Below the pieces are notes generated by a model, which saw nothing but the letters and a program-made list of their open reading frames with translations, was not told the DNA's origin and searched no databases. Both the position numbers and the translations under genes were made by a program. Source: Gemmatimonadaceae bacterium (lineage in GTDB: Bacteria; Gemmatimonadota; Gemmatimonadetes; Gemmatimonadales; Gemmatimonadaceae). From it: DNA of 12,117 nt. Positions 644 to 12,117 of the stretch are shown here, piece after piece (position 1 is the first letter of the stretch; each line of letters starts with the position of its first letter). The stretch is taken from NCBI GenBank assembly GCA_013361745.1, contig JABFXM010000089.1, forward strand, positions 1 through 12,117, in the 5' to 3' direction.

Positions 644-1671
644 CGCCCCGTTCCGACGCGGATGCCTAACGCGCCCTCCCAGCTCGCGTCGCCGGCGGAC
701 CCGCCGACGAACTCGTTGAAGGTCGGGATCGCGATCGCGCCGACGCGGCCGACCTCGAAGGTCAGCGTCGCCCAGCGCATGTCGACGCTCGCGTCGGCGA
801 AGAGCTGGGACCGCGTCACCTTCTGCGCGAAGCCGTCGAAGGGACGCCCGCTGCACGACTGCGGTCCGTAGGTGCAGCGCGGCGGCTGGATCGCGACGTA
901 CAGGTTCATCTCGCTCGAGGCGCGGTCCTGCCCGCCGCCCGCGTCGAGCTGCAGCGGTCCGAACGAGCTGCTCGCGACGAGCCGCCACGCGGTCGTGCGC
1001 GCGCGCAGTCCCTCGACCTCGACGCGGTCGCTGTTCGCGGCGAACGCCGCCGCGGCGTGGACCACGGGGAGGTCGCGCCGGATCCACGTCGCGCTCAGCG
1101 CCGGCCACGGTCCGGGGGCGTCGAAGATCCCGAGCCGCGCGCCGTAGCCGAGCTTCAGCGGGCCGTTGGGCACGCGCACCGTCACCCCGCCGCGCGCGAC
1201 GTTAGGCAGGTACGCGACGTTGACGAGCGCGTCGAGCCCGCCGACGGAGAAGCCGGCGAATGGGAGCGACGGCAGCACGCCGACCGCTCCATCGACCATC
1301 GGCAATGGCAGCGGGATCTCCTGGAGCGGGAAGCGCGTCCGCTTCGCGGCGCCGGTGTCCGCCGGAAACTGCGAGAGATCGGGAACGCTTCCGTCGATGA
1401 CGTGAAATCGGAGTCCGACGGTCCACCGCCCGAGTCCGAGCGGCGTCCCCTGGCCGAGCGTCGCATTGCCGCCGGCGACGACCGCGCCGAGCTGCGGGGC
1501 GAGCTGGCGATAGAGATCGGTGGCCTTCTGGCAGACGTCCTGGAAAGTGCTGCTCCCCCCGGCACATTGGGGATCGAGCGCGCCCGTGCCGTTCTGCGCA
1601 CGAAGCGGCGCCGCCCATGCGCCGACGAGCAGCCCGGCGATGGCGACGCCGCTACGAAACTTCAACCTCAT
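640..1671 (-). CDS. Exported outer-membrane beta-barrel-like protein B, tandem paralogue of the upstream gene
   Basis: This is a 343-residue protein of unknown function. Residues 1-25 form a signal peptide (basic MRLKFR, hydrophobic core, cleavage after PLRA). The mature N-terminus has two cysteines spaced C-x10-C, followed by APQLGAVVAGGNATLGQG. The rest alternates glycine and aromatic-rich strands (VGGLDALVNVAYLP, PLKLGYGARLGIF), as in outer-membrane barrels. These blocks align with the next gene upstream: C-x10-C, APQLGAV.AGGN.TLGQG, VGG.DALVNV.Y.P, GVTV, PNG, K.GYG.R.G, RRDLP/KRDLP, GGGQD. Hence the two are tandem duplicates. This copy ends in GIRVGTGR rather than an aromatic residue, so the usual C-terminal barrel-assembly signal is missing. 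It starts 6 bp after the upstream stop, with AGAGGA overlapping that stop. I infer an outer-membrane location but no ligand. Confidence 0.85.
   Translation of the reverse strand: MRLKFRSGVAIAGLLVGAWAAPLRAQNGTGALDPQCAGGSSTFQDVCQKATDLYRQLAPQLGAVVAGGNATLGQGTPLGLGRWTVGLRFHVIDGSVPDLSQFPADTGAAKRTRFPLQEIPLPLPMVDGAVGVLPSLPFAGFSVGGLDALVNVAYLPNVARGGVTVRVPNGPLKLGYGARLGIFDAPGPWPALSATWIRRDLPVVHAAAAFAANSDRVEVEGLRARTTAWRLVASSSFGPLQLDAGGGQDRASSEMNLYVAIQPPRCTYGPQSCSGRPFDGFAQKVTRSQLFADASVDMRWATLTFEVGRVGAIAIPTFNEFVGGSAGDASWEGALGIRVGTGR
664..671 (+). repeat. Octamer GCCTAACG, exact, inside outer-membrane protein B
   Basis: Exact copy. On the coding (minus) strand it reads gCG-TTA-GGC, giving Leu-Gly with the rare TTA codon, near the protein's C-terminus. 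Confidence 0.7.
1200..1207 (-). repeat. Octamer GCCTAACG, exact, inside outer-membrane protein B
   Basis: Exact copy in the opposite orientation. The coding strand reads CTG-CCT-AAC-GTC, giving Pro-Asn with the uncommon CCT codon. Confidence 0.7.
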
Positions 1672-1677
1672 GATCCT

Positions 1678-2655
1678 CTAGAATCCGATGCGCAGCCCGA
1701 GCGAGCCGTAGAGACGCGACGCGTCGGCGGGCTTGCCCGAGAAGGTATTGTACGTCGCGACCTTGCCGCCGGAGGTCGTCCCGATCTCGGCGACGAGCTT
1801 CGCGAGCATCATGTTCATGTAGACGTCGGCGAAGTAGTTCGTGCGCGTGAGCGACTGCGACACGTTGGCCGTCGCCGGCACGTACGGGGGCGCGACGCCG
1901 CTGATGGAAGCCGAGGACTCGTACTTGTCCTGCCCGCCGCCGAGCGCCAGCCCGTACAGGAGGAACGACTTGCTCGCCGTCACCCGCCAGCTCGTCGTCT
2001 TCGCGTCGAGGGCGTTGACGTCGATCGAGTTCTGCCCCGCGGTCGCGTGGATGTCCACCGTCGGCAGGTCACGCTTGACGTAGCTCACGCCGATTCCCGG
2101 GGTGAGGAGTCCCTCCTGGAGCACGCCGACGCGCACGCCGTAGCCGAACTTCGTCGAACCGTTAGGCGTCTTCACCGTCACGCCACCACCGTTGTACTCG
2201 GGGATGTACGAGACGTTGACGAGCGCGTCGATCCCGCCGACGCGCGTCACGCCGAGGCTCAGCCCGGGAAAGACACCGATCGACGCGTCGACCACCGGCA
2301 TCGCGAGGACCTGGTTCTTCGTCGGGACGGTCTGCGCCGAGGTGTTCGAGAGCGGATTCGGGCTGTAGAACGGGGTGTAGCTCCTGAGCTGCGGCAGCGA
2401 CCCGGCGAGCGCGTTCGCGCGAAGCGAGATCGCGAAGCGCGGGAACCCGCCCATCGTGCCGCCCTGGCCCAGCGTCGTGTTGCCGCCGGCGATCACCGCG
2501 CCGAGCTGCGGCGCCATGTAGTTGAAGAGGTCGACGCCCATGTTGCAGGCGTTCTGCTGCGGGGCGACGCTGCTGTTGCACTGGCTGGCCTGCCCCTCCA
2601 CCGTCACTGCGCTCGCCACCAGCGCGCCCATCACGACAACGAGATTGCACTTCAT
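1678..2655 (-). CDS. Exported outer-membrane beta-barrel-like protein A
   Basis: This is a 325-residue protein of unknown function. Residues 1-21 or so are a signal peptide. The mature protein opens with a C-x10-C pair, possibly a disulfide, then MAPQLGAVIAGGNTTLGQG. It continues as glycine-rich amphipathic stretches (FGYGVRVGVL, LALGGGQDKY, YFADVYMNMML). It ends in GLRIGF; the terminal phenylalanine is the typical beta-barrel insertion signal. It is the likely parent-type copy of the paralogue immediately downstream (6-bp gap). It lies 15 bp after purM, with GGAG (2667-2664 on the minus strand) eight bases before the ATG. The position inside a purM-ribD run does not suggest an obvious substrate. 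A FadL-like or other small-molecule channel is possible, but I recognise no named family. Confidence 0.87.
   Translation of the reverse strand: MKCNLVVVMGALVASAVTVEGQASQCNSSVAPQQNACNMGVDLFNYMAPQLGAVIAGGNTTLGQGGTMGGFPRFAISLRANALAGSLPQLRSYTPFYSPNPLSNTSAQTVPTKNQVLAMPVVDASIGVFPGLSLGVTRVGGIDALVNVSYIPEYNGGGVTVKTPNGSTKFGYGVRVGVLQEGLLTPGIGVSYVKRDLPTVDIHATAGQNSIDVNALDAKTTSWRVTASKSFLLYGLALGGGQDKYESSASISGVAPPYVPATANVSQSLTRTNYFADVYMNMMLAKLVAEIGTTSGGKVATYNTFSGKPADASRLYGSLGLRIGF
2160..2167 (-). repeat. Octamer GCCTAACG, exact, inside outer-membrane protein A
   Basis: Exact copy. The coding strand reads ACG-CCT-AAC-GGT, giving Pro-Asn within TPNGS. Confidence 0.7.
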
Positions 2656-2668
2656 TCGTCTTGCTCCG

Positions 2669-2676
2669 CGTTAGGT
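2669..2676 (-). repeat. Octamer variant ACCTAACG across the purM stop
   Basis: One-mismatch copy. Its TAA is the purM stop codon, and it abuts the ribosome-binding site of the next gene. Confidence 0.5.
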
Positions 2677-3702
2677 GAGAACCACTCGCCCGGCGCCGTC
2701 CGTGATGTGTCCCATGAGCCAGGCCGGTACCCCGGCCGCCGCCGCCGCCGCGATCACGCGGTCGGCTGACGATTCGTCGGTGATGACCACCATACCGACG
2801 CCCATGTTGAAGGCCCGAAACATCTCGGATCGCTCGACGCCACCGGCGCGCTCCAGCTCCTGAAAGACACTCGGGACCGTCCATGTCCCCGTGTCAACGA
2901 GCGCGTCCATCGTACCCGGCAACGCCCGGTTCAGGTTCCCCGGCAGTCCGCCACCTGTGATGTGCGCCATCGCGTGGATGTGATCCAGCACCGGACGCAG
3001 CGCCGCGAGGTACGAGCGGTGTACCGCGAGCAAGACATCGGCCACGGATCGCTCGGTTCCCGGGAAGCGATCGCGCGCGCCGATTTTCATGCGCTCGCTC
3101 ACGATCCGCCGCGCGAGCGAGTAGCCGTTGGTGTGCAGCCCCGAGCTCTCGAGGCCGACGAGCACGTCGCCGACGCGGACGCGCTCGCTGCCTAACACTC
3201 GCTGCTCCTCGACGAGCCCGACGATGAAGCCCGCGAGATCGTAATCGGGCGGCGTGTACACGCCCGGCATCTCGGCAGTCTCGCCGCCGATCAGCGCGCA
3301 GCCGTTCTCGCGGCAGCCAGCCGCGACACCGGCGACGACGCCCTCGACGACGCGCGGCTCGAGCTTCCCGAAGGCGACGTAGTCGAGGAAGAAGAGCGGC
3401 GACGCGCCCTGCACGAGGATGTCGTTCGTGCAATGGTTGACGAGATCGTGGCCGATCGTGTCGTGGCGGTCCGCCTCGATCGCGACCTTGATCTTCGTCC
3501 CGACGCCGTCCGCGCTCGCGACGAGCAGCGGCGCCGTCGCGCTCTCCGGCACGCGGAACATCCCGCCGAAGCCGCCGAACGCGCCCCGCGCGCCAGCCGT
3601 GAAGGTGCTCTCGACGAGCTTGCGGATCCGCTCCTTCGCCTCGTCCGCGGCGTCGATGCTGACGCCGGCGTCGCCGTACGTCAGCCCCTCCTTGGCCGTC
3701 AC
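2671..3702 (-). CDS. purM: Phosphoribosylformylglycinamidine cyclo-ligase (AIR synthetase)
   Basis: PurM closes FGAM to 5-aminoimidazole ribonucleotide using ATP, the fifth step of purine synthesis, in the cytoplasm. At 343 residues it has the normal family length. Diagnostic segments are the N-terminal YGDAGVSIDAADEAKERI, the ATP and metal loop SADGVGTK (63-70), NHCTNDILVQGA (89-100), LIGGETAEMPG (137-147) and SSGLHTNGYSLAR (186-198), then HITGGGLPGNLNR and FNMGVGMV. The start is GTG (3702-3700), overlapping the TGA of the upstream kinase as GTGA, with GGAG at 3711-3708 five bases before it. The stop TAA lies within an ACCTAACG copy of the window's octamer. One leucine is encoded by TTA, inside another octamer copy at 3190-3197. 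The identification is secure. Confidence 0.97.
   Translation of the reverse strand: MTAKEGLTYGDAGVSIDAADEAKERIRKLVESTFTAGARGAFGGFGGMFRVPESATAPLLVASADGVGTKIKVAIEADRHDTIGHDLVNHCTNDILVQGASPLFFLDYVAFGKLEPRVVEGVVAGVAAGCRENGCALIGGETAEMPGVYTPPDYDLAGFIVGLVEEQRVLGSERVRVGDVLVGLESSGLHTNGYSLARRIVSERMKIGARDRFPGTERSVADVLLAVHRSYLAALRPVLDHIHAMAHITGGGLPGNLNRALPGTMDALVDTGTWTVPSVFQELERAGGVERSEMFRAFNMGVGMVVITDESSADRVIAAAAAAGVPAWLMGHITDGAGRVVLT
3190..3197 (+). repeat. Octamer variant GCCTAACA inside purM
   Basis: One-mismatch copy. The coding strand reads GTG-TTA-GGC, with the only in-frame TTA codon I find in purM. Confidence 0.5.
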
Positions 3703-4610
3703 GCGATCTCCGCCTCGAAGGCGACGAGCTCCTGGAACTCGCCGAGGCGCCGCGCGATGTCGGCCTGTGTCACCTCGAGCAGCCGCTGGACGCTGAACTT
3801 CTCGACCGCGAAGCTGCCCAACGCCGCGCCGTAGATCATCGCGCGCCGCATGTTGCGCTCGCTCAGGTCGCCGGTGCGCGCGAGGTAGCCCATGAAGCCG
3901 CCGGCGAAGGAATCCCCCGCGCCGGTCGGGTCGAACACCGACTCGAGCGGGTACGCGGGCGCGAAGAAGATCGTGTCGCGCGTGAACATGAAGGCGCCGT
4001 GCTCGCCCTTCTTGATGATCACGTGGCGCGGACCCCTATCCAGGATCCAGCGAGCGGCCTGCACGAGGTTGAACTTCTCGGTGAGCTGGCGTGCCTCGCC
4101 GTCGTTCAGCGTGATGAGATCGACGTGCTTCAGCAGCTCGAGCAGGTCGGAGCGGCGGCTCTCGATCCAGAAATTCATCGTGTCGCAGGCGACGAGCTTC
4201 GGCCGGTTCACCTGGCGGAGCACGTCGAGCTGCAGCCGCGGATCGATGTTCGCGAGGAAGACGAAGGGCGCGCTCTTGAACTGCTCCGGGATCTTGGGGC
4301 TGAAGTGCGAGAACACGCCGAGGTGCGTCTCGATCGTCTCGGCGCTGTTCAGGTCGTGCCGGTAGCGGCCGCGCCACCGGAAGGACGATCCCTCCGCGCG
4401 CTCGAGTCCCGACAGATCGACGCCGCGCTTCGCGAGCGGTTGCAGCTGCTCGACGGGGTAGTCGCTCCCGACGACGCCGACGAGCTGCACCGGCGTGAGG
4501 AGGCTCGCGGCGGCGGAGAAGAAGGTCCCCGATCCGCCGAGGACGTTGTCCGCGCGGCCGAAGGGAGTCTCGACCGAGTCGAGCGCGACCGAACCGACGA
4601 CTAGGAGCAT
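3699..4610 (-). CDS. PfkB/ribokinase-family kinase, substrate unknown
   Basis: This 303-residue cytoplasmic kinase probably phosphorylates a sugar or nucleoside with ATP. It has the N-terminal VVGSVALDSVETPFG, the substrate-side double glycine VLGGSGTFFSAAAS (23-36), the NxxE motif NDGEARQL (169-176) that contacts Mg-phosphate, KKGEHGAF (200-207), and the C-terminal signature DPTGAGDSFAGGF (227-239), whose Asp233 is the catalytic base. NFWIESRR and the VETPFG start recall a subgroup often filed only as 'sugar kinase', sometimes near methylthioadenosine phosphorylase genes; that is memory, not a search. It overlaps purM by four bases, so it may serve purine or ribose metabolism, but this is inference. 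No Shine-Dalgarno sequence is visible: the bases before the ATG are pyrimidine-rich. It probably leads its transcript. Confidence 0.93.
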   Translation of the reverse strand: MLLVVGSVALDSVETPFGRADNVLGGSGTFFSAAASLLTPVQLVGVVGSDYPVEQLQPLAKRGVDLSGLERAEGSSFRWRGRYRHDLNSAETIETHLGVFSHFSPKIPEQFKSAPFVFLANIDPRLQLDVLRQVNRPKLVACDTMNFWIESRRSDLLELLKHVDLITLNDGEARQLTEKFNLVQAARWILDRGPRHVIIKKGEHGAFMFTRDTIFFAPAYPLESVFDPTGAGDSFAGGFMGYLARTGDLSERNMRRAMIYGAALGSFAVEKFSVQRLLEVTQADIARRLGEFQELVAFEAEIA

Positions 4611-4844
4611 CGTTTCAGAGGAAGTGGTTGGCAGGGCGTTCGTGGAGTCGCACGCGCGGAACGCTGTACGTGTGCGGCATCAACGGCGGGAACGACAATC
4701 TCACTGATTCGCACGGATTTTCACTGATACGACTTCAGGACTGAAAGGCGAGACGGCTCACGTCGAACGGCCGAGCTGCAGTATCCGTGCAGATCCGTGT
4801 ACATCCGTGTGATCGTCGTTCCCCAATCGATGCTGGAGTCGCGC
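4611..4844. other. Intergenic region between argS and pfkB
   Basis: This gap separates the two leftward gene runs. Most of it is the 136-bp inverted-repeat element. The 77 bp between that element and the pfkB start (4611-4687) should hold the pfkB promoter, but I see no convincing -35/-10 pair and no Shine-Dalgarno sequence. On the minus strand there is no T-tract after any hairpin, so a classical intrinsic terminator for argS is not evident. Confidence 0.6.
4688..4823. repeat. 136-bp imperfect inverted-repeat element with 10-bp-spaced CACGGAT units
   Basis: Two 43-base arms (4688-4730 and 4781-4823) are inverted copies, matching at 34 of 43 positions by hand alignment. The outer ends are perfect (GGGAACGAC at 4688-4696, its complement at 4815-4823). 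The right arm holds ATCCGTG at 4783, 4793 and 4803, exactly 10 bp apart. The left arm holds CACTGAT, CACGGAT and CACTGAT with the same 10-bp period (4702, 4712, 4722). The 50-bp centre contains a small inverted repeat, TTCAG-GA-CTGAA (4734-4745). It lies between the argS stop and the pfkB start. No transposase or T-tract is seen. It could be a dispersed intergenic repeat, a structured RNA or terminator, or a protein-binding array. No family assignment was possible. Confidence 0.75.
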
Positions 4845-6488
4845 TCACATCCGCTCCGGCGCCGTGATCCCGAGGATCGAGAGCCCGTTCCGCAGCACGA
4901 TCATCGACGCCCGCGCGAGGAGCAGGCGCGCGTTCATGATCTCCGCCGGCTCGTTCAGCACGTGCGCCTTGTGGTACCAGAGATGCATCCGGCGTGCGGT
5001 CTCGAGCAGATAGTTCGCGACACGGTGCGGCTCGAGCGCGTCCGCCGCGCCGGCGACGAGCGCCGGGAAGTCGAGCAGCGACTTCACCAGCTCCTGCTCC
5101 TCCGGCAGCGAGAGCTGCGCGAAGTCGACGCCGGCGCCGCTGATCGATGCAGGGTCGATCTCGCCGACGCGGAAGATCCCGCAGAGGCGCGCGTGCGCCA
5201 TCTGGATGTAGTACACGGGGTTCTCCTCGCTCTGCGAGCGCGCGAGGTCGACGTCGAAGACGAGCTGCGAGTCGCCCTTCCGCATCAGGAAGAAGTAGCG
5301 CACCGCGTCGCGCCCGACCTCGTCGATGAGGTCGCGCACCGTGACGTAGCTCCCCGCGCGCTTGGAGATCTTCATCTCCTCCCCGCCGCGCATCACCGTC
5401 ACCATCTGGTGCAGCACGTAGTCGGGATATCCCGCGGGAATCCCCATGCCTAACGCCTGCAGCCCCGCGCGCACGCGGGTCACCGTGCTGTGGTGGTCGG
5501 CGCCCTGGACGTTGATCGCGCGGTGGAAGCCGCGCTCCCACTTCGTCACGTGATAGGCGACGTCGGGAAGGAAGTACGTGTACGTCCCGTCACGCTTGCG
5601 CATGACGCGATCCTTGTCGTCGCCGAACGCCGTCGTGCGCAGCCAGAGCGCACCCTCGCTCTCGTACGTCGCGCCCTTCTCCTCCAGCATCGCGACCGTC
5701 TTCTCGACCATCCCGTTCTCGTAGAGCGAGCTCTCGAGATAGTAGGTGTCGAAGGCGACACCGAACGCCTGGAGGTCGAGGTCCTGCTCGCGACGCAGCG
5801 CCTTCACGGCGAAGCGGCGGATCGCCTCGAGGTCCTCCGCCTTCGGGTCCTCGCGATGCTCCTCGACGTAGCGCGCCGCGATCTCGCGGATGTACTCGCC
5901 GTGGTAGCCGCCCTCGGGGATGGGCGCGTCCATCCCCGCGAGCTGGCGCGCGCGTGCCTGCACGCTGAGCGCGAGGTTCGCGATCTGCACGCCGGCGTCG
6001 TTGTAGTAGAACTCGCGCGAGACCTTCCAGCCCGTCCACTCGAGCAGCGCGGCGATCGCGTCGCCCAGCGCCGCCTGGCGCCCATGGCCGACGTGAAGTG
6101 GGCCGGTCGGGTTCGCGGAGACGAACTCGACGTTCACCGCGCGGCCTTCGCCGGTGGCGCGGCGGCCGAATTGGTCGCCTTCCGCTACTATCGCGGGCAG
6201 CCCCGCGGCCAGCGTCCCGGCGTCGATGCGGAAGTTGATGAAGCCGGGCCCGGCGATCTCCGCGCCGGACACCCCCGCCTTGCCGAGGTCCATCGCGCCG
6301 ATGAGCGCGTTGGCGATGTCGCGCGGGGACTTCTTCAGCGGCCGCGCGAGCGTCATCGCGAGGTTGGTCGCCCACTCGCCGAACTGCGGATCGCGCGGGC
6401 GCTCGAGCACCGGCTCGACTCCTTCCGGCGCGCCGAGGGCGCGAGCGGCGCGCGCCAGCTCGCCGCGAATGCGCTCGGCGCTGCTCAT
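4845..6488 (-). CDS. argS: Arginyl-tRNA synthetase
   Basis: This class I synthetase charges tRNA-Arg with arginine in the cytoplasm. At 547 residues it is a normal length. It has the N-terminal Add1 domain ([13 protein letters not shown] at 33-45), the HIGH box as HVGH (132-135) within [14 protein letters not shown], and [12 protein letters not shown] (161-172). The KMSKS-equivalent is KISKR (373-377), followed by [15 protein letters not shown]. The C-terminal DALR anticodon-binding domain ends LGITAPERM. The ATG (6488-6486) overlaps the stop of the zinc-ribbon gene as ATGA, so the two are co-translated. A TTA codon at Leu346 lies in an octamer copy (5448-5455). No T-box leader is seen. The identification is secure. 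Confidence 0.98.
5448..5455 (+). repeat. Octamer GCCTAACG, exact, inside argS
   Basis: Exact copy. The coding strand reads GCG-TTA-GGC at Ala345-Leu346-Gly347, with the only in-frame TTA codon I find in argS. Confidence 0.7.
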
Positions 6489-6838
6489 TCCGTGCTCGGC
6501 TTCGTCGAGGGCGCGGGGGCAGCCGGCTTGGCGTCTGCGCTTCCCGACTTCTCGCTCTTCGCGTCGCTCTTCGCCTCGCCTTTCGATTCGGTCGAGGCCG
6601 AGCCGCTCCCCTCGCTCTTCGCCGGCGGCCTCGTCGAGCCCTTGGCGTGCGCGTTCTTTCCGTAGTCGGTGAGGTAGAAGCCGGAGCCCTTGAACATGAG
6701 GCCGGCGCCGGCGGACATCTGGCGTACGGCCTCACGGCCGCACGTCGGGCACGCGACGACCGGCTCGGCGGCGGAGATCGTCCGGAAGAACTTCTCGAAC
6801 TCGTGCCCCTCGGGGCAACGATATTCGTAAGTGGGCAT
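6485..6838 (-). CDS. FmdB-family zinc-ribbon protein with charged low-complexity tail
   Basis: This is a 117-residue small protein of the FmdB putative-regulator family, whose biochemical role is not established. It begins MPTYEYRC, then the ribbon: Cys8, Gly11-His12 where most members have a second cysteine (CPEGHEFE), and Cys30-x2-Cys33 (ACPTCG). [11 protein letters not shown] (50-60) is typical of the family. From about residue 70 the tail is rich in Lys, Ser, Glu and Ala, and probably disordered. I chose the ATG at 6838-6836 because the family starts at MPTYEY; a longer frame to 6988 adds unrelated residues. No Shine-Dalgarno is visible (pyrimidine-rich leader), so leaderless or S1-dependent initiation is possible. 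It is first in its run and overlaps argS by four bases. Confidence 0.92.
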
Positions 6839-6882
6839 TCGGGAGAGACTTGGGAGCTGCGTGAAGCGAACTATCAAGCTAA

Positions 6883-6910
6883 GCCCGCTGACGGGGCCGA
6901 ACAAGCGGGC
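6883..6910. repeat. Inverted repeat GCCCGCT/AGCGGGC in the fmdB leader
   Basis: GCCCGCT (6883-6889) and AGCGGGC (6904-6910) are perfect complements separated by 14 bases, 45-72 bases upstream of the fmdB start. It could form an RNA hairpin in the fmdB-argS leader or bind a dimeric regulator. It has no following T-tract, so it is unlikely to be a terminator. A chance occurrence in GC-rich DNA is possible. Confidence 0.4.
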
Positions 6911-7115
6911 GCTCCCTCCGTCCGCGACGCGCTTCCCCGTTGTCAGCGATGTATCAGCAGTCGATGCGTGGGGACTGGCGCGGCCCACTCCAACCGGTCA
7001 GATTGGGCCCCCGACCACACCATCAACTAACGCCACCCTGTCGCCGCGCCGACCCGCGCGCCGCGAGGGAGTTCGCCACGTCCGGCCGACGCCCCGACCC
7101 GATCCGATCGCGGAA

Positions 7116-7123
7116 CGTTAGGC
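7116..7123 (-). repeat. Octamer GCCTAACG, exact, upstream of susC
   Basis: Exact copy in non-coding DNA, 70 bp before the susC start. Confidence 0.7.
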
Positions 7124-7180
7124 CCGCCCCCCTTCACCACTGCCGCCACGCGCGGCTCCTTCTTCAACCCGAGGCGTTTC

Positions 7181-7186
7181 AAGGAG
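7181..7186 (+). promoter_or_regulatory. Ribosome-binding site of susC, decides the start
   Basis: AAGGAG lies directly against an ATG at 7187 (no spacer) but six bases before the ATG at 7193. Normal Shine-Dalgarno spacing favours 7193. This start also gives a clean signal peptide beginning MRRF. Confidence 0.85.
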
Positions 7187-7192
7187 ATGCCC

Positions 7193-10174
7193 ATGAGAAG
7201 GTTCGTCAGTTCACTCCTCACCGTCGCGGGGCTGGCATTGTTGCCCGCCGGCCTGCGCGCCCAGCAGACAGGAACCGTTACTGGCCTCGTGACCGGTCAG
7301 GGCAACGTTCCCGTCCCTAATGCGGCCGTGCAGATCGTCGGAACGACGATGGGCACCCGCACCAGCGACGACGGAAGCTACCGCATCACCGGCGTGCCGA
7401 GCGGCGCGCGGACGCTGCGGGCCTCGCGCATCGGCTACGCCGCGATGACGCAGTCCGTCACTGTCCCCGCGGGGGGCACGGTGAGCGCGAACTTCACCCT
7501 CGACGTCTCGCACATCGTCCTCGGAGACGTCCTCATCACCGCCGCCTCCGGCGAGACGATGCGGAAGCGCGAGAGCGGCGCGGCGACGGCGACCGTGGCC
7601 TTCGACTCCGTGCCACCGGTGCCGAGCGCGAACTTCTCCCAGGCGCTGAACTGCAAGGCGTCGGGCGTGACCATCCAGCAGGCGAGCGGCTCGACCGGCT
7701 CCGGAGCGCGCATCCGCATCCGCGGCTCGAACTCCATGTCGCTCAGCAACGAGCCGCTGCTCATCATCGACGGCGTCCGCGCCGACAACTCGGCGGAGTC
7801 GAACTCCATCGACGTCGGCGGCATCTACCCGTCGCGCATCAACGACCTCAACCCGGACGACATCGAGTCCGTCGAGGTGATCAAGGGACCGGCGGCGGCG
7901 GCGCTCTACGGCACCGCGGCGGCGAACGGCGTCCTGCAGATCACGACGAAGCGCGGCCGCGCCGGCCAGACGCACTTCACCACGTATGGTGAGCGCGGGC
8001 GGCTGTACGAGGTCACCGCGTATCCGTACAACTTCGGCGGCTGGACGAGCGACACGGCCAACTATCCGCCGGTCATCGGGTCGCCCGGCGCGAGCCCGTT
8101 CTGCAACCTCGACGAGCAGGCACACGGCGGATGCACCATCGATTCCCTCGCCAAGCTCAATCCGCTCGAGCAGTACAGCCCCTTCCGCATCGGCAACCGC
8201 AGCAAGTTCGGCGGCTCGGTGAACGGCGGCTCCGACAAGCTTCAGTACTATCTCTCGGGTGACAAGGAAGTCGAGGAGGGGGTGCTGATGAACAACCTCC
8301 TCGCCCGCTTCAACCTGCGCAGCAACCTGCGCGCGAGCCTCCGGAAAGATCTCGACGTCAGCCTGAACACCGGCTACACGAACAGCGCGCTGCAGCTCCC
8401 GCAGACCGACAACAGCTACTACGCTCCGCTCGGCAACGGCTACGGCGGCGACGCGTATCCGGGCCTCTATCACGGCTACGATCCGATTCCGCCCGAGCAG
8501 TCGTACTCGGTGAACACGACCCAGAACCTCGACCGCTTCGTCGGGAGCCTCAACACGAACTACACGCCGCTCCCCTGGCTGAAGGTCACGGGCGTCACGG
8601 GCGCCGACATTCTGAGCCGCATCGACCGCGAGATCACGCCGCGCGACGCGGTGCACTTCACCGACGCGTCACTCCTCGGCGCCGCGACGTCGAACCAGTT
8701 CCGCATCACGAACTACACGGCGAACTTCTCCGGCATCGCGACCTTCCAGCCCGCGGAGGCCTTGACCTCGACGACCACGGTCGGGTCGCAGTTCGCGCAG
8801 AGCTCCAACACCGGCACGTTCGCGTACGGCGAAGACCTCGCGGGTGGCATCGCCTCGCTGCGCGGCGTCGCGGCACGCTTCGCCGTCGACGAGCGCACCA
8901 TCACCAACCGCACCCTCGGCGGCATCTTCTCCGAGGAGCTCGGGTGGCGTGACCGGCTGTTTCTCACCGGCGCCGCGCGCGCCGACAAGAACAGCGCGTT
9001 CGGCGCGAACCTGAAGCCGGTCGTCTATCCCGCCGCCAGCATCTCGTACGTCGTGAGCGAGGAGCCATACTGGCCGCGCAACCCCGTGGTGAGCACGCTG
9101 CGGCTGCGCACGGCGTACGGCGAGTCGGGTCTGCGCCCGGGACCGCAGGACGCGCTTCAGTACTACGCTCCCCGCGGCACGACGGTGCACGGCAAGGATG
9201 CGCCGGGCCTCGCCCTCGCGAACTTCGACAACCCGAACCTCAGGCCCGAGCGCTCGGGCGAGTTGGAGGGGGGCTTCGAGGCGTCGCTGTTCGGCGATCG
9301 TGCGAGCCTCGACGTCACGGCGTACGACAAGAGGTCTCGTGACGCGCTGGTGCTGCGCCGGCTGCCACCTTCGCTCGGTGGTCCGACGTCGCGCTTCGAG
9401 AACATCGGCAAGGTGTCGAACAAGGGTCTCGAGGTGGCGCTGAACTCGAAGGTGCTGCAGCTGAACAACCTCCAGTGGGACGTGAACGTGAACGCCGCCT
9501 GGAACAGGAACCGGCTCGTCGAGCTCGGAAAGAACATCCCCGATATCGTGTTCGGCTTCAGCAGCTCGCAGCGCCACACACCCGGTCGTCCGCTCGGCGC
9601 GTTCTACGGTCGCGTCATCACGGGCTACCAGGTGGTCAACGGACTCGTGGACCCGTCGACGATCAAGCGCAGCGCGAGCCCGACGTATCTCGGCACGCCG
9701 ATCCCGACGCGGACGGTGACGCTGACGACGGGTGTCACCTTCTTCAAGCTGGCGCGCCTCTCCACCCTGCTCGATTACAAGGGTGGGCACATGCAGTACA
9801 ACGACTCGGAGTCGTTCCGCTGCGGCATCGGCACCTGCCGCGGCGTCAATGATCCCGCCGCTCCGGCTGACGAGCAGGCCCGCGCGCTCGCCCGCTACGA
9901 GTCGAGCTCGGCGATCGGCGACTTCATCGAGCACGCCGACTACATGAAGGTGCGCGAGGTCTCGCTCACCCTCACCGCTCCGCACGACTGGGCGGCACTC
10001 GCGCGCGCGAACGACGCGAGCCTCGTGATCTCCGGTCGCAATCTCTACACGTGGACCCGCTACACCGGCCTCGATCCGGAGCAGAACATCGGGCAGAACA
10101 ACTTCACGACGACGGACTTCCTCGGCCAGCCGAACGTCCGGTACGCGACCGTCCGCCTCAACCTCACTTTCTGA
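7193..10174 (+). CDS. SusC/RagA-type TonB-dependent outer-membrane transporter
   Basis: This 993-residue outer-membrane importer is energised by TonB-ExbBD and probably takes up oligosaccharide or peptide nutrients with its SusD partner. A signal peptide (1-23, cleaved after GLRA) is followed by a carboxypeptidase-regulatory-like beta-sandwich (~25-105; GLVTGQGNVPVPNA, TSDDGSYRITGVPSG). The plug domain (~115-255) has the SusC hallmarks SLSNEPLLIIDGV (185-197), DDIESVEVIKGPAAAALYGT (222-241) and ANGVLQITTKRG (244-255). The remainder is a 22-stranded-type barrel ending FLGQPNVRYATVRLNLTF, with a C-terminal phenylalanine. An NCKASGV segment replaces the more usual GR-type plug residues. susD follows after 24 bp. 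No anti-sigma factor, CAZyme or peptidase is adjacent, so the substrate cannot be inferred. Confidence 0.95.
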   Translation: MRRFVSSLLTVAGLALLPAGLRAQQTGTVTGLVTGQGNVPVPNAAVQIVGTTMGTRTSDDGSYRITGVPSGARTLRASRIGYAAMTQSVTVPAGGTVSANFTLDVSHIVLGDVLITAASGETMRKRESGAATATVAFDSVPPVPSANFSQALNCKASGVTIQQASGSTGSGARIRIRGSNSMSLSNEPLLIIDGVRADNSAESNSIDVGGIYPSRINDLNPDDIESVEVIKGPAAAALYGTAAANGVLQITTKRGRAGQTHFTTYGERGRLYEVTAYPYNFGGWTSDTANYPPVIGSPGASPFCNLDEQAHGGCTIDSLAKLNPLEQYSPFRIGNRSKFGGSVNGGSDKLQYYLSGDKEVEEGVLMNNLLARFNLRSNLRASLRKDLDVSLNTGYTNSALQLPQTDNSYYAPLGNGYGGDAYPGLYHGYDPIPPEQSYSVNTTQNLDRFVGSLNTNYTPLPWLKVTGVTGADILSRIDREITPRDAVHFTDASLLGAATSNQFRITNYTANFSGIATFQPAEALTSTTTVGSQFAQSSNTGTFAYGEDLAGGIASLRGVAARFAVDERTITNRTLGGIFSEELGWRDRLFLTGAARADKNSAFGANLKPVVYPAASISYVVSEEPYWPRNPVVSTLRLRTAYGESGLRPGPQDALQYYAPRGTTVHGKDAPGLALANFDNPNLRPERSGELEGGFEASLFGDRASLDVTAYDKRSRDALVLRRLPPSLGGPTSRFENIGKVSNKGLEVALNSKVLQLNNLQWDVNVNAAWNRNRLVELGKNIPDIVFGFSSSQRHTPGRPLGAFYGRVITGYQVVNGLVDPSTIKRSASPTYLGTPIPTRTVTLTTGVTFFKLARLSTLLDYKGGHMQYNDSESFRCGIGTCRGVNDPAAPADEQARALARYESSSAIGDFIEHADYMKVREVSLTLTAPHDWAALARANDASLVISGRNLYTWTRYTGLDPEQNIGQNNFTTTDFLGQPNVRYATVRLNLTF

Positions 10175-10186
10175 GCGCCGATGCGC

Positions 10187-10192
10187 AGAGGA
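10187..10192 (+). promoter_or_regulatory. Ribosome-binding site of susD, decides the start
   Basis: AGAGGA ends six bases before the ATG at 10199. The earlier in-frame ATG at 10181 has no such site and would add six residues ahead of the signal sequence, so 10199 is preferred. Confidence 0.75.
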
Positions 10193-10198
10193 TATATC

Positions 10199-11575
10199 AT
10201 GACCACCGTGCGATTCATCGCGCGTGCGGCCGCGCCGCGTCGAGCCGGAGGCGCGGCGCTGGGCGCGCTGGCGCTCGTCGCCGCCGTCAGCGCCTGTGAC
10301 CTCAAGGTCGCGCAGCCCGACGTGGCGTCGCCGTCGTCCGTCAATCAGTCGGGCGCCCGCGCGACGCTGCTCAACGGCGCCGTCTCGCTGTTCTCGCAGG
10401 GCTACGCCGGCAACGGCGACAGCAGCGGCGTCGCCTCCCTCGGCGGGATGTTCTCCGACGAGTTCACCGACTCCGACTACCAGGAGCGGCACATCGACGT
10501 GGACAAGCGCAACGTTCCGGAGAACAGCGCCGCGGTCGCCGGCGCGTACACGGCGCTCCAGCGCGCGCGTGTCGCCTCGCTCGACGTGGCCGCGCGGTAC
10601 GCGGCGGCCGATCCGACGTCGATCCACGCCGCCGAGGCGGAGATGATCGCCGCCTACTCGTTCCTCACCTTCGCCGAGAACTGGTGCAACGGCGTTCCGT
10701 ACAGCAACTACAACGGAGGCAACCTCCAGTACGGCACGCGGACGACGTCGGCGCAGACCTATGACAGCGCGCTCACGCACTTCGACAAGGCGCTGGCCAT
10801 CGCGGTCAAGGGCGACACCGTGCACGATCAGGACGCGCTCGACGTCGTCAACACCATCCGCGTCGGACGCGGGCGGACGCTGCTCGGCCAGGGCAAGTTC
10901 GCCAGCGCGGCGATCGCGGTCACCGGCGTGCCGGCCGGCTTCGTGTACTACCTGTACTCGTCGTCGGCGAGCACGAAGCAGTACAACGGCGTGTATTCCT
11001 GGAACAACAGCTACGGCCGATTCACCGCGGCGAACAGAGAAGGCACGAACGGCCTGAACTTTCTCAGTGCGAACGACCCGCGCGTGAAGTACCAGGACGC
11101 GGGGAAGTTCGGACTGGACGGCCGCACGGAGCTGATCTACCAGATGAAGTATCCCGATTACGGCTCGCCGATGCCGCTCGCGTCGGGCACAGAGGCGGAG
11201 CTCATTCGCGCCGAGGCGGACCTGCAGGCGGGTAGCAGCAACTGGCTCACGCGCCTCAACGGGCTTCGGGCCAGCGCGGGGCTTTCGGCGCTGACCGATC
11301 CGGGGACGGGCGCCGGCCCCGACTCCGCGCGCGTCGCTATCCTGTTTCGCGAGCGCGCCTTCTGGCTCTGGCTGACCGCGCACCGCATGGCCGATATGCG
11401 GCGGCAACTGCGGCAGTACGGAAACTTCTTCACGCAGTCGGCGCTCTACCCGACGGGTTCCTACCCGAAGGGCGGCAACTACGGCACCGACGTGGTATTC
11501 AAGGTTCCCTTCGACGAGCGCAACAACCCGAACTACTCGGGCGCGGCGACCACCTGCACCGACATGAATCCGTAG
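10199..11575 (+). CDS. SusD/RagB-type surface lipoprotein
   Basis: This 458-residue lipoprotein is the substrate-capturing lid of the SusC channel upstream. A basic, hydrophobic leader ends in the lipobox VSAC, with lipidated Cys32. The SusD alpha-helical TPR-like scaffold shows GAYTALQRARVASL, then the core EAEMIAAYSFLTFAENWCNGVPYS. EAELIRAEADL and FRERAFWLWLTAHRMADMRR follow, near the C-terminus. VVFKVPFDERNNPN precedes the end, where CTDMNP supplies a cysteine that may pair with another. It is shorter than many Bacteroidota SusD proteins (often ~500-600 residues), as I recall for Gemmatimonadota members. It follows susC by 24 bp and is followed by a strong terminator, so the two form one operon. 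Confidence 0.93.
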   Translation: MTTVRFIARAAAPRRAGGAALGALALVAAVSACDLKVAQPDVASPSSVNQSGARATLLNGAVSLFSQGYAGNGDSSGVASLGGMFSDEFTDSDYQERHIDVDKRNVPENSAAVAGAYTALQRARVASLDVAARYAAADPTSIHAAEAEMIAAYSFLTFAENWCNGVPYSNYNGGNLQYGTRTTSAQTYDSALTHFDKALAIAVKGDTVHDQDALDVVNTIRVGRGRTLLGQGKFASAAIAVTGVPAGFVYYLYSSSASTKQYNGVYSWNNSYGRFTAANREGTNGLNFLSANDPRVKYQDAGKFGLDGRTELIYQMKYPDYGSPMPLASGTEAELIRAEADLQAGSSNWLTRLNGLRASAGLSALTDPGTGAGPDSARVAILFRERAFWLWLTAHRMADMRRQLRQYGNFFTQSALYPTGSYPKGGNYGTDVVFKVPFDERNNPNYSGAATTCTDMNP

Positions 11576-11598
11576 CCGGCACGAACGGCGACGAAAGA

Positions 11599-11636
11599 CG
11601 AAACGGCCCGGGGAATCCCGGGCCGTTTCGCGTTTT
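11599..11636 (+). terminator. Intrinsic terminator after susD
   Basis: A perfect 14-bp stem (11599-11612 with 11617-11630) and a GAAT loop are followed by CGTTTT (11631-11636). It lies 23 bp after the susD stop and 19 bp before the end of the converging mutase gene. The T-run favours rightward termination. The minus-strand side offers only CTTTCGT, so leftward use is possible but weaker. Confidence 0.9.
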
Positions 11637-11647
11637 CACGGCGGGTT

Positions 11648-11655
11648 GCCTAACG
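11648..11655 (+). repeat. Octamer GCCTAACG, exact, across the mutase stop
   Basis: Exact copy. The coding strand reads CGT-TAG-GC, supplying the TAG stop of the mutase gene. Confidence 0.7.
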
Positions 11656-12117
11656 TCCGGGCGCGTACACCCCCCACACCCCGCGCAGCACGTCAGCGAT
11701 CTCGCCCACCGACGCCCGCGCGCGCACCGCGTCGACGATCAGCGGCATCAGCGGCTCGCGCGCGCCCGCGCCGAGATATCCCGGTGCCGCGGCGCCTAAC
11801 GCGTCGAGCGTGCGCTTCACCGCGGCACCGTCGCGCTTCTCCTTCACCGCGCGCAGTCGCTCGACCTGATCCCGCGCGAGCCGCGAGAAGTCCGGCGTCG
11901 GGATCACCGGCGGCTCCTGTTCGTCGGCGAACCGGTTCACCCCGACGATCACCGTCTCCCCCGACTCGATCCGCAGCTGCTGCTCGTACGCGCTGCGACC
12001 GATCTCCTCCTGAAAGAACCCCGCCTCGATCGCCTGCGCCGCGCCGCCGAGCTCCTCGACCTTCGCCATGAGCGCGAGCGCGCGCTCCTCGAGCGCGTTC
12101 GTCAGCGATTCGACGTA
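11650..12117 (-). CDS. Methylmalonyl-CoA mutase family large subunit, C-terminal part only
   Basis: The last 155 residues of an acyl-CoA mutase catalytic subunit are visible; the start lies beyond the window. This adenosylcobalamin enzyme interconverts methylmalonyl-CoA and succinyl-CoA in propionate metabolism. Recognisable segments are YVESLTNALEERA at the window edge, AQAIEAGFFQEEIGRSAY, ESGETVIVGVNRF and VGEIADVLRGVWGVYAPGR. The chain ends right after GVYAPGR, where fused mutases usually continue into a B12-binding domain. That domain is therefore presumably a separate protein. The ATG at 12069 is internal, not the start. The TAG stop lies within an octamer copy, and one TTA codon lies in another. 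Isobutyryl-CoA or a related mutase cannot be excluded. Confidence 0.9.
   Translation of the reverse strand, partial: YVESLTNALEERALALMAKVEELGGAAQAIEAGFFQEEIGRSAYEQQLRIESGETVIVGVNRFADEQEPPVIPTPDFSRLARDQVERLRAVKEKRDGAAVKRTLDALGAAAPGYLGAGAREPLMPLIVDAVRARASVGEIADVLRGVWGVYAPGR
11794..11801 (+). repeat. Octamer GCCTAACG, exact, inside the mutase gene
   Basis: Exact copy. The coding strand reads GCG-TTA-GGC (Ala-Leu-Gly), 146 bp from the copy at the stop codon. Confidence 0.7.

Follow-up and report, generated by a model that had tools for sequence, protein, structure and literature searches.

An abundant non-palindromic octamer in the Gemmatimonadaceae and its possible role as a DNA uptake word

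The window and its copies of the word

The window analysed here, a 12,117-nucleotide stretch of contig JABFXM010000089.1 from a Gemmatimonadaceae bacterium, encodes a RibD-like protein, two proteins without a Pfam family, PurM, a PfkB kinase, ArgS, a zinc-ribbon protein, SusC-like and SusD-like proteins, and a methylmalonyl-CoA mutase. Genes were called with a simple script of our own rather than with Prodigal. The closest titled relatives of the window's ArgS are those of Gemmatimonadaceae and other Gemmatimonadota. Scattered through these genes and spacers is an 8-bp word, GCCTAACG, which reads CGTTAGGC on the other strand and is not palindromic. It occurs seven times exactly, against a mean of 0.26 copies, and two at most, in 200 dinucleotide shuffles. 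Genomes are labelled by number: G000 is that of the window; G001 is a congener; G017 is Gemmatirosa kalamazoonensis; and f1 and f2 are two families of one order, G000 and Gemmatirosa both belonging to f1. The copies in the window are as follows:

664..671, plus strand: exact GCCTAACG in a minus-strand gene without a Pfam family, read as GCG TTA GGC (Ala-Leu-Gly)
1200..1207, minus strand: exact copy in the same gene as the copy at 664, CTG CCT AAC GTC (Pro-Asn)
2160..2167, minus strand: exact copy in the gene after that one, ACG CCT AAC GGT (Pro-Asn); G001 has it at the matching position
2669..2676, minus strand: one-mismatch copy (CGTTAGGT in plus-strand letters) across the PurM stop codon (ACC TAA CG); without a counterpart in G001
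3190..3197, plus strand: one-mismatch copy (GCCTAACA in plus-strand letters) inside PurM, GTG TTA GGC; not kept in G001
5448..5455, plus strand: exact copy in ArgS, GCG TTA GGC; the same codon carries the word in ArgS of G001 and G032
7116..7123, minus strand: exact copy, intergenic, upstream of the SusC-like gene
11648..11655, plus strand: exact copy across the stop codon of the methylmalonyl-CoA mutase gene (CGT TAG GC)
11794..11801, plus strand: exact copy in the methylmalonyl-CoA mutase gene, GCG TTA GGC (Ala-Leu-Gly)

A preliminary description of this DNA had listed the seven exact and two near-miss copies at these positions, and had placed them in two coding frames, in stop codons and in intergenic DNA; all nine are there, and reading the frames confirms each context. 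One frame, xCG TTA GGC, is used at 664, 5448 and 11794, and the other, xxG CCT AAC Gxx, at 1200 and 2160. Four exact copies lie on the plus strand and three on the minus; with the near-misses the orientations number five and four, as had been counted.

Abundance in the genome and across the phylum

The word is real, strong and, among genera, patchy by lineage. The preliminary description had named enrichment confined to the window as a result that would speak against it; G000 as a whole (2.97 Mb in 619 contigs, 72% complete) holds 880 copies (407 + 473) against 57 (29 + 28) of the reversed word, and the enrichment is therefore wider than the window. Word density in the window, 0.58 per kb, is about twice the G000 mean of 0.30 per kb. 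Among 60 genomes—its own and those of relatives—the counts in f1 are bimodal: 12 of the 36 genomes of this family have between 709 and 4,469 copies, and the remaining 24 have between 4 and 50. The richest, with 4,469, is G017, identified as Gemmatirosa by the 100% match of a 20-kb stretch of its contig C3 to NZ_CP007129.1. For the phylum we drew 298 genomes evenly, with a completeness limit of 80% and G000 kept apart, and read the counts from the resulting table. More than 300 copies were found in 18 genomes (13 of f1 and five of f2, one order), 168 to 181 in three, and 93 or fewer in 277. Seven further genomes titled Gemmatimonadota comprise two Gemmatimonadaceae metagenome-assembled genomes, with 639 and 223 copies, and five with 6 to 52; genomes reached through loci not so titled have 1 to 98 (n = 33).

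In sampled DNA the copies far outnumber order-2 expectation: 278 against 5.4 in 480 kb of G017 (a mobile element, L031, included), 98 against 2.7 in 136 kb of G022, and 24 against 0.4 in 44 kb of G001, with 0 against 0.5 in 200 kb of the word-poor G016. The G017 stretches and the contigs of the other three were picked blind to copies. The figure for G000, 48 against 0.9 in 140 kb, overstates the density, the 11 contigs sampled, the window among them, having been picked for visible copies. Stretches of G036 were also picked for copies, and a further set for comEC and argS. The order-6 Markov test that the preliminary description had proposed misses the excess altogether: in the same 140 kb it expects 47.2 copies where 48 are observed, and so gives no rejection, whereas orders 1 to 3 expect 0.8 to 2.0. 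This equality is a fault of the test. The sub-words GCCTAAC (49) and CCTAACG (51) are already exceptional and carry all of the excess, and to it order 6 is consequently blind.

The unit is a sharp octamer, whose information ends abruptly at eight bases. There are two qualifications: a pyrimidine, C or T, usually precedes the word, and in G022 the last of the eight positions is less strict. Some one-mismatch words are themselves in excess: GCCTAACA in G017 (16 against 0.8) and G022 (22 against 1.1), GCCCAACG in G022 (40 against 10.4; 4 against 5.7 in G000), and GCCTGACG in G001 (23 against 3.8; 16 against 10.4 in G000). In the sampled loci of G001 (L066-L074) GCCTGACG is about as frequent as GCCTAACG, 25 and 24 in 44 kb, perhaps a dialect. 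No alternative word stood out in 24 samples taken in search of one in word-poor genomes, 23 of them only 11 to 22 kb long; one sample, L117, lies in the genome with 639 copies. In 40–60 kb samples of the moderately rich G027, G030, G035 and G006 the word itself is outside the top six.

Retention of the word as DNA

Synonymous codons were shuffled within each genome, 40 times each, and the genic copies seen were compared with the shuffle mean. They exceed it in G017 (167 against 3.2), G022 (91 against 2.9), G021 (48 against 1.1), G000 (36 against 0.8), G001 (25 against 0.5), G032 (20 against 0.4), G012 (15 against 0.6) and G030 (7 against 0.1), and in the word-poor control G016 there are none against 0.6. 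In G017 every one of the six codon phasings is represented, the two that include a stop codon among them, and spacers hold copies too; the G000 sample has four of the six. As the shuffles agree with the range of frames and with the copies in stop codons and spacers, we conclude that the word is retained at the level of DNA, and the earlier suggestion that selection acts on the DNA word, not on the protein, is borne out.

The word explains much of the TTA codon use in G000 and of the TAA stops in Gemmatirosa. In sampled G000 genes 28 of 30 TTA codons lie inside it, and TTA is used in 0 of 1,213 pairs of Ala, Pro, Ser or Thr with Leu that lack a following Gly. Fifty of 76 TAA stops in G017 read GCC TAA CG, and 16 of 82 TAG stops read CGT TAG GC. 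One Ala-Leu-Gly of ArgS is spelt GCG TTA GGC in seven of the nine word-rich genomes with data (G000 has CTG here), and with TTA in none of nine word-poor genomes, which use CTC or CTT instead.

Distribution along the replicons

Copies avoid one another at close range: across eight genomes 45 of 509 gaps are shorter than 250 bp, where uniform placement gives 76.3 (sd 7.5), and every one of 1,000 simulations gave more. In G017 densities are similar on the chromosome and on three stretches of its two megaplasmids. Over 359 genes of this genome, words crowd stop codons, with 69 within the 25 nt before the end of the stop, and are scarce at gene starts, with two in the first 50 nt. A promoter element was considered and rejected, the distances from word to gene start being spread.

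The genes richest in G+C at third codon positions (GC3) carry more of the word, the top third being 2.5 to 5 times denser than the bottom third in all four genomes tested. The difference extends to the use of available places: over five genomes, the word fills 16 of 69 permissive contexts among the third of genes lowest in GC3 and 242 of 486 among the other genes (p = 3e-5), and outside the bottom third the filled share reaches 65% in G022 and 72% in G001. We assume that low-GC3 genes are of foreign origin. One stretch with glycosyltransferase genes has two copies in 20 kb.

History among relatives

On a tree of ArgS (20 rows, 11 of them word-rich; eight of 17 inner branches open) the word-rich rows are scattered and do not form one group. 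Seven changes are needed, at least three of them forced by supported branches, and the clustering is no better than that of shuffled labels, 348 of 500 shuffles being as low. The tree supports the word-poor G016 as sister to G017. Individual sites are seldom shared. Seventeen orthologous families supplied 39 genic sites. Of these, 29 are present in one genome only and 30 in one word-rich genome only, one of the 30 being shared with the word-poor G024; one site each occurs in three, four and seven genomes. With 30 of the 39 confined to a single word-rich genome, the function looks spread rather than site-specific. Over the span of the window that aligns with G001 both exact copies are kept, neither near-miss is, and G001 has three extra copies; together with the 39 sites, this indicates that the word turns over, as a dispersed signal would.

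Two further arguments were set aside. The shared ArgS site (AALGD), present in seven of nine word-rich genomes though not in G000, was not accepted as proof of common ancestry: 30 of the 39 sites belong to a single word-rich genome each, and independent gain is possible. The pair G022 and G243 was dropped as a case of recent loss within a genus, their DNA identity being 70–78% over the five longest matches. The argS of G012 lies in two overlapping pieces (L251, L252; G012:C6:97031-98661), a split that, in an essential gene, may be a sequencing error. In the window itself, the spacer downstream of argS (4690-4815) contains, by eye, repeated ATCCGTGT-like segments that may be a small dispersed repeat.

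What might read the word

By analogy with known systems, GCCTAACG may be a word by which naturally transformable members of the order recognise their own DNA at uptake, a reading to which we give a probability of roughly one half. On this model free DNA would be recognised by its copies of the word, through a receptor on the cell surface that is probably a minor type IV pilin, and then imported by way of ComEC. Once inside, it would recombine with the chromosome, and copies would spread to any place that the encoded protein can tolerate: synonymous codons, stop codons and spacers. Lineages that lost the specificity would have lost the word. In favour of the model are the excess over whole genomes and over synonymous shuffles, the bimodal counts among relatives, the non-polar strands, the avoidance of close spacing, the near-misses of several genomes, the lower density in low-GC3 genes and the scatter of sites from genome to genome. 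ComEC is present in all 12 word-rich f1 genomes. The competence search covered ComEC in 60 genomes and pilin motifs in 12, all 12 of which were positive. Among the candidate roles listed in the preliminary description an uptake-type word appears to fit best; the HIP1-like role suffers from the lack of a palindrome, and the methylation role, as far as N6-methyladenine goes, from the Gemmatirosa methylome, while a chromosome-organising role stays conceivable.

A good deal weighs on the other side. Binding, uptake and drive by transformation are steps that we infer. ComEC is found in 56 of the 60 genomes, word-poor ones included, and does not discriminate; pilin-motif counts are alike, ranging from 6 to 19 in the six word-rich genomes searched and from 7 to 17 in the six word-poor ones; and no reader gene, or gene that tracks the word, turned up among the ComEC, pilin motifs, methylase families and integrase searched. 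Inverted pairs show no excess, with 5 opposite-strand against 16 same-strand pairs within 150 bp in G017. Divergent spacers of G017 hold 23 copies in 15.8 kb and convergent spacers 2 in 9.9 kb (copies that overlap stop codons uncounted), the reverse of an association with terminators, a preference that G022, with 4 in 4.5 kb and 3 in 2.3 kb, does not repeat. The excess of near-misses is weak or absent in G000 and G012. A codon-score proxy for native genes runs opposite to the GC3 result in G017; in G022, G000 and G021 it gives weak support (p 0.05 to 0.23). Finally, a 21-kb Gemmatirosa mobile element (L031:1-20000, G017:C1), which encodes an integrase and a primase-like protein, is rich in the word, with 17 copies in 20 kb, 12 of them distinct. 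Since inverted pairs are not in excess, and uptake and receptor are inferred, we do not claim for this word a place among the DNA uptake sequences (DUS) of Neisseriaceae and the uptake signal sequences (USS) of Pasteurellaceae.

The mobile element has a peculiarity of its own. It seems to carry its first 6 kb again at an offset of about 15 kb, and it matches the start of the chromosome contig; the true unit may be about 15 kb. No viral relatives of its primase were found.

The main rival to the uptake reading is that the word is the binding site of some intracellular protein, concerned with nucleoid organisation, replication, repair or non-polar recombination, and that selection keeps about half of the permissive contexts filled. 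This would be a new kind of genome-wide, non-polar DNA reader, dictating the choice of leucine, proline and stop codons at thousands of places, and we regard it as a tentative second choice. The avoidance of close spacing suits it, as do the high filling of permissive contexts in G022 and G001, the similar densities on chromosome and megaplasmids, the word-rich mobile element and the preference for divergent spacers in G017. It accords poorly with the finding that most genic copies are not at matching places in other genera, and with the near-absence of the word from G016 and G188, of the genus that the ArgS tree, via G016, makes sister to G017. Nor is there a candidate protein, and thousands of individually selected sites would be hard to maintain without drive. 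A word made or kept by DNA methylation and mismatch repair, like the highly iterated palindrome 1 (HIP1) of cyanobacteria, is improbable. HIP1 is likewise 8 bp long and hyper-abundant, and methylation-dependent repair that creates HIP sites is proposed in PMC4390886. Yet GCCTAACG is not a palindrome, and the N6-methyladenine motifs published for Gemmatirosa are RGATCY, ATGCAC and CCAGN7TCA (PMC3974934), among which the word is missing; this argument covers N6-methyladenine. Neither of the two methylase families searched tracks the word: among 15 word-rich and 15 word-poor genomes, PF01555 enzymes occur in 8 and 9 respectively, and PF02384 (>100 bits) in 8 and 5.

Slighter still is the chance that the copies are integron attC/attI core sites, scattered as landing pads or remnants. 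The word-poor G036, of the same order, does have a region like a cassette array, with repeats of the form GCCTAAC...CGTTAGGC, in which many of its copies lie, and integron integrase (TIGR02249) scores above cut-off in 35 of the 60 genomes. The G017 chromosome has one attC-like inverted pair of words, 95 bp apart (L038:14837-14939). Most sampled copies nevertheless stand alone, spelt by synonymous codons within conserved genes; integrase, above cut-off in 10 of the 12 word-rich genomes of f1 and in 16 of its 24 word-poor ones, does not discriminate; and the f2 genome G054, with 181 copies, has none above cut-off. The least probable reading of all is a polar recombination or segregation signal like Chi or the FtsK-orienting polar sequences (KOPS). 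The word is, to be sure, 8 bp, non-palindromic and abundant, and the two halves of the G017 chromosome—by numbering, not by origin and terminus—are weakly asymmetric, with 54 plus and 73 minus, then 51 plus and 41 minus. The strand majority over 23 stretches of G017, however, is that of a coin toss (0.613, against 0.616 at random and 0.755 for a 75:25 polarity), and for this genome the preliminary description was right to call the word non-polar.

Two observations on integrons may be recorded here. The G036 array (L095:1-20000, also L097; contigs C95, C43, C80) has many attC-like elements, and their core is the genome-wide word of its relatives. The attC-like pair in L038 lies on a replicon other than that of the best G017 integrase match (contig C3). 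A literature search listed no paper that brings integrons, attC and Gemmatimonadetes together.

Should the word prove to be an uptake word, it would be a third, independent case in another phylum, and evidence that words of this type arise repeatedly. Its presence and absence among related genera would allow a test of molecular drive against selection. Otherwise a genome-wide DNA reader of a new class awaits discovery.

Comparison with known systems

The core site of integron attC and attI is GTTRRRY, and the word equals one core end of the repeats in the G036 array (L095). Paired cores occur only in that array; the sampled copies genome-wide are mostly without a second core nearby and lie in conserved genes. 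Chi and KOPS are also short, abundant words; they are polar, whereas this word is non-polar in the G017 sample. HIP1 shares its length and hyper-abundance, with the differences that HIP1 is palindromic and linked to orphan methyltransferases (PMC4390886), and that this word is neither a palindrome nor an N6-methyladenine motif of Gemmatirosa.

Among the papers listed on uptake, transformation, competence or over-represented motifs in Gemmatimonadota or Gemmatimonadetes, and among the best 30 of 329 for the word itself, we found no description of the word; the search covered few subscription papers. PMC12616744 names Neisseriaceae and Pasteurellaceae as the only families known with uptake specificity of this kind. 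PMC1939737 gives uptake sequences no orientation bias, a place in coding and non-coding DNA alike and a footprint of near-misses, and counts about 10% of copies in inverted pairs; they have been described as evenly spaced, to a degree which that paper disputes. In Neisseriaceae many are inverted pairs associated with terminators (PMC3630211), and mobile islands are located by local scarcity of the uptake word (PMC7371117).

The likeness of GCCTAACG to DUS and USS is considerable. It too is a short, non-palindromic word, present in hundreds to thousands of copies in unbiased orientations, in genes and in spacers, rather evenly spaced, attended by near-miss satellites and patchy among relatives. 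It differs in belonging to a different phylum, in having 8 bp rather than 9–12, and in showing no excess of inverted pairs, which are a usual companion of such words and not a requirement. It differs, too, in its strong use of stop codons in Gemmatirosa, and in the one mobile element that is rich in it.

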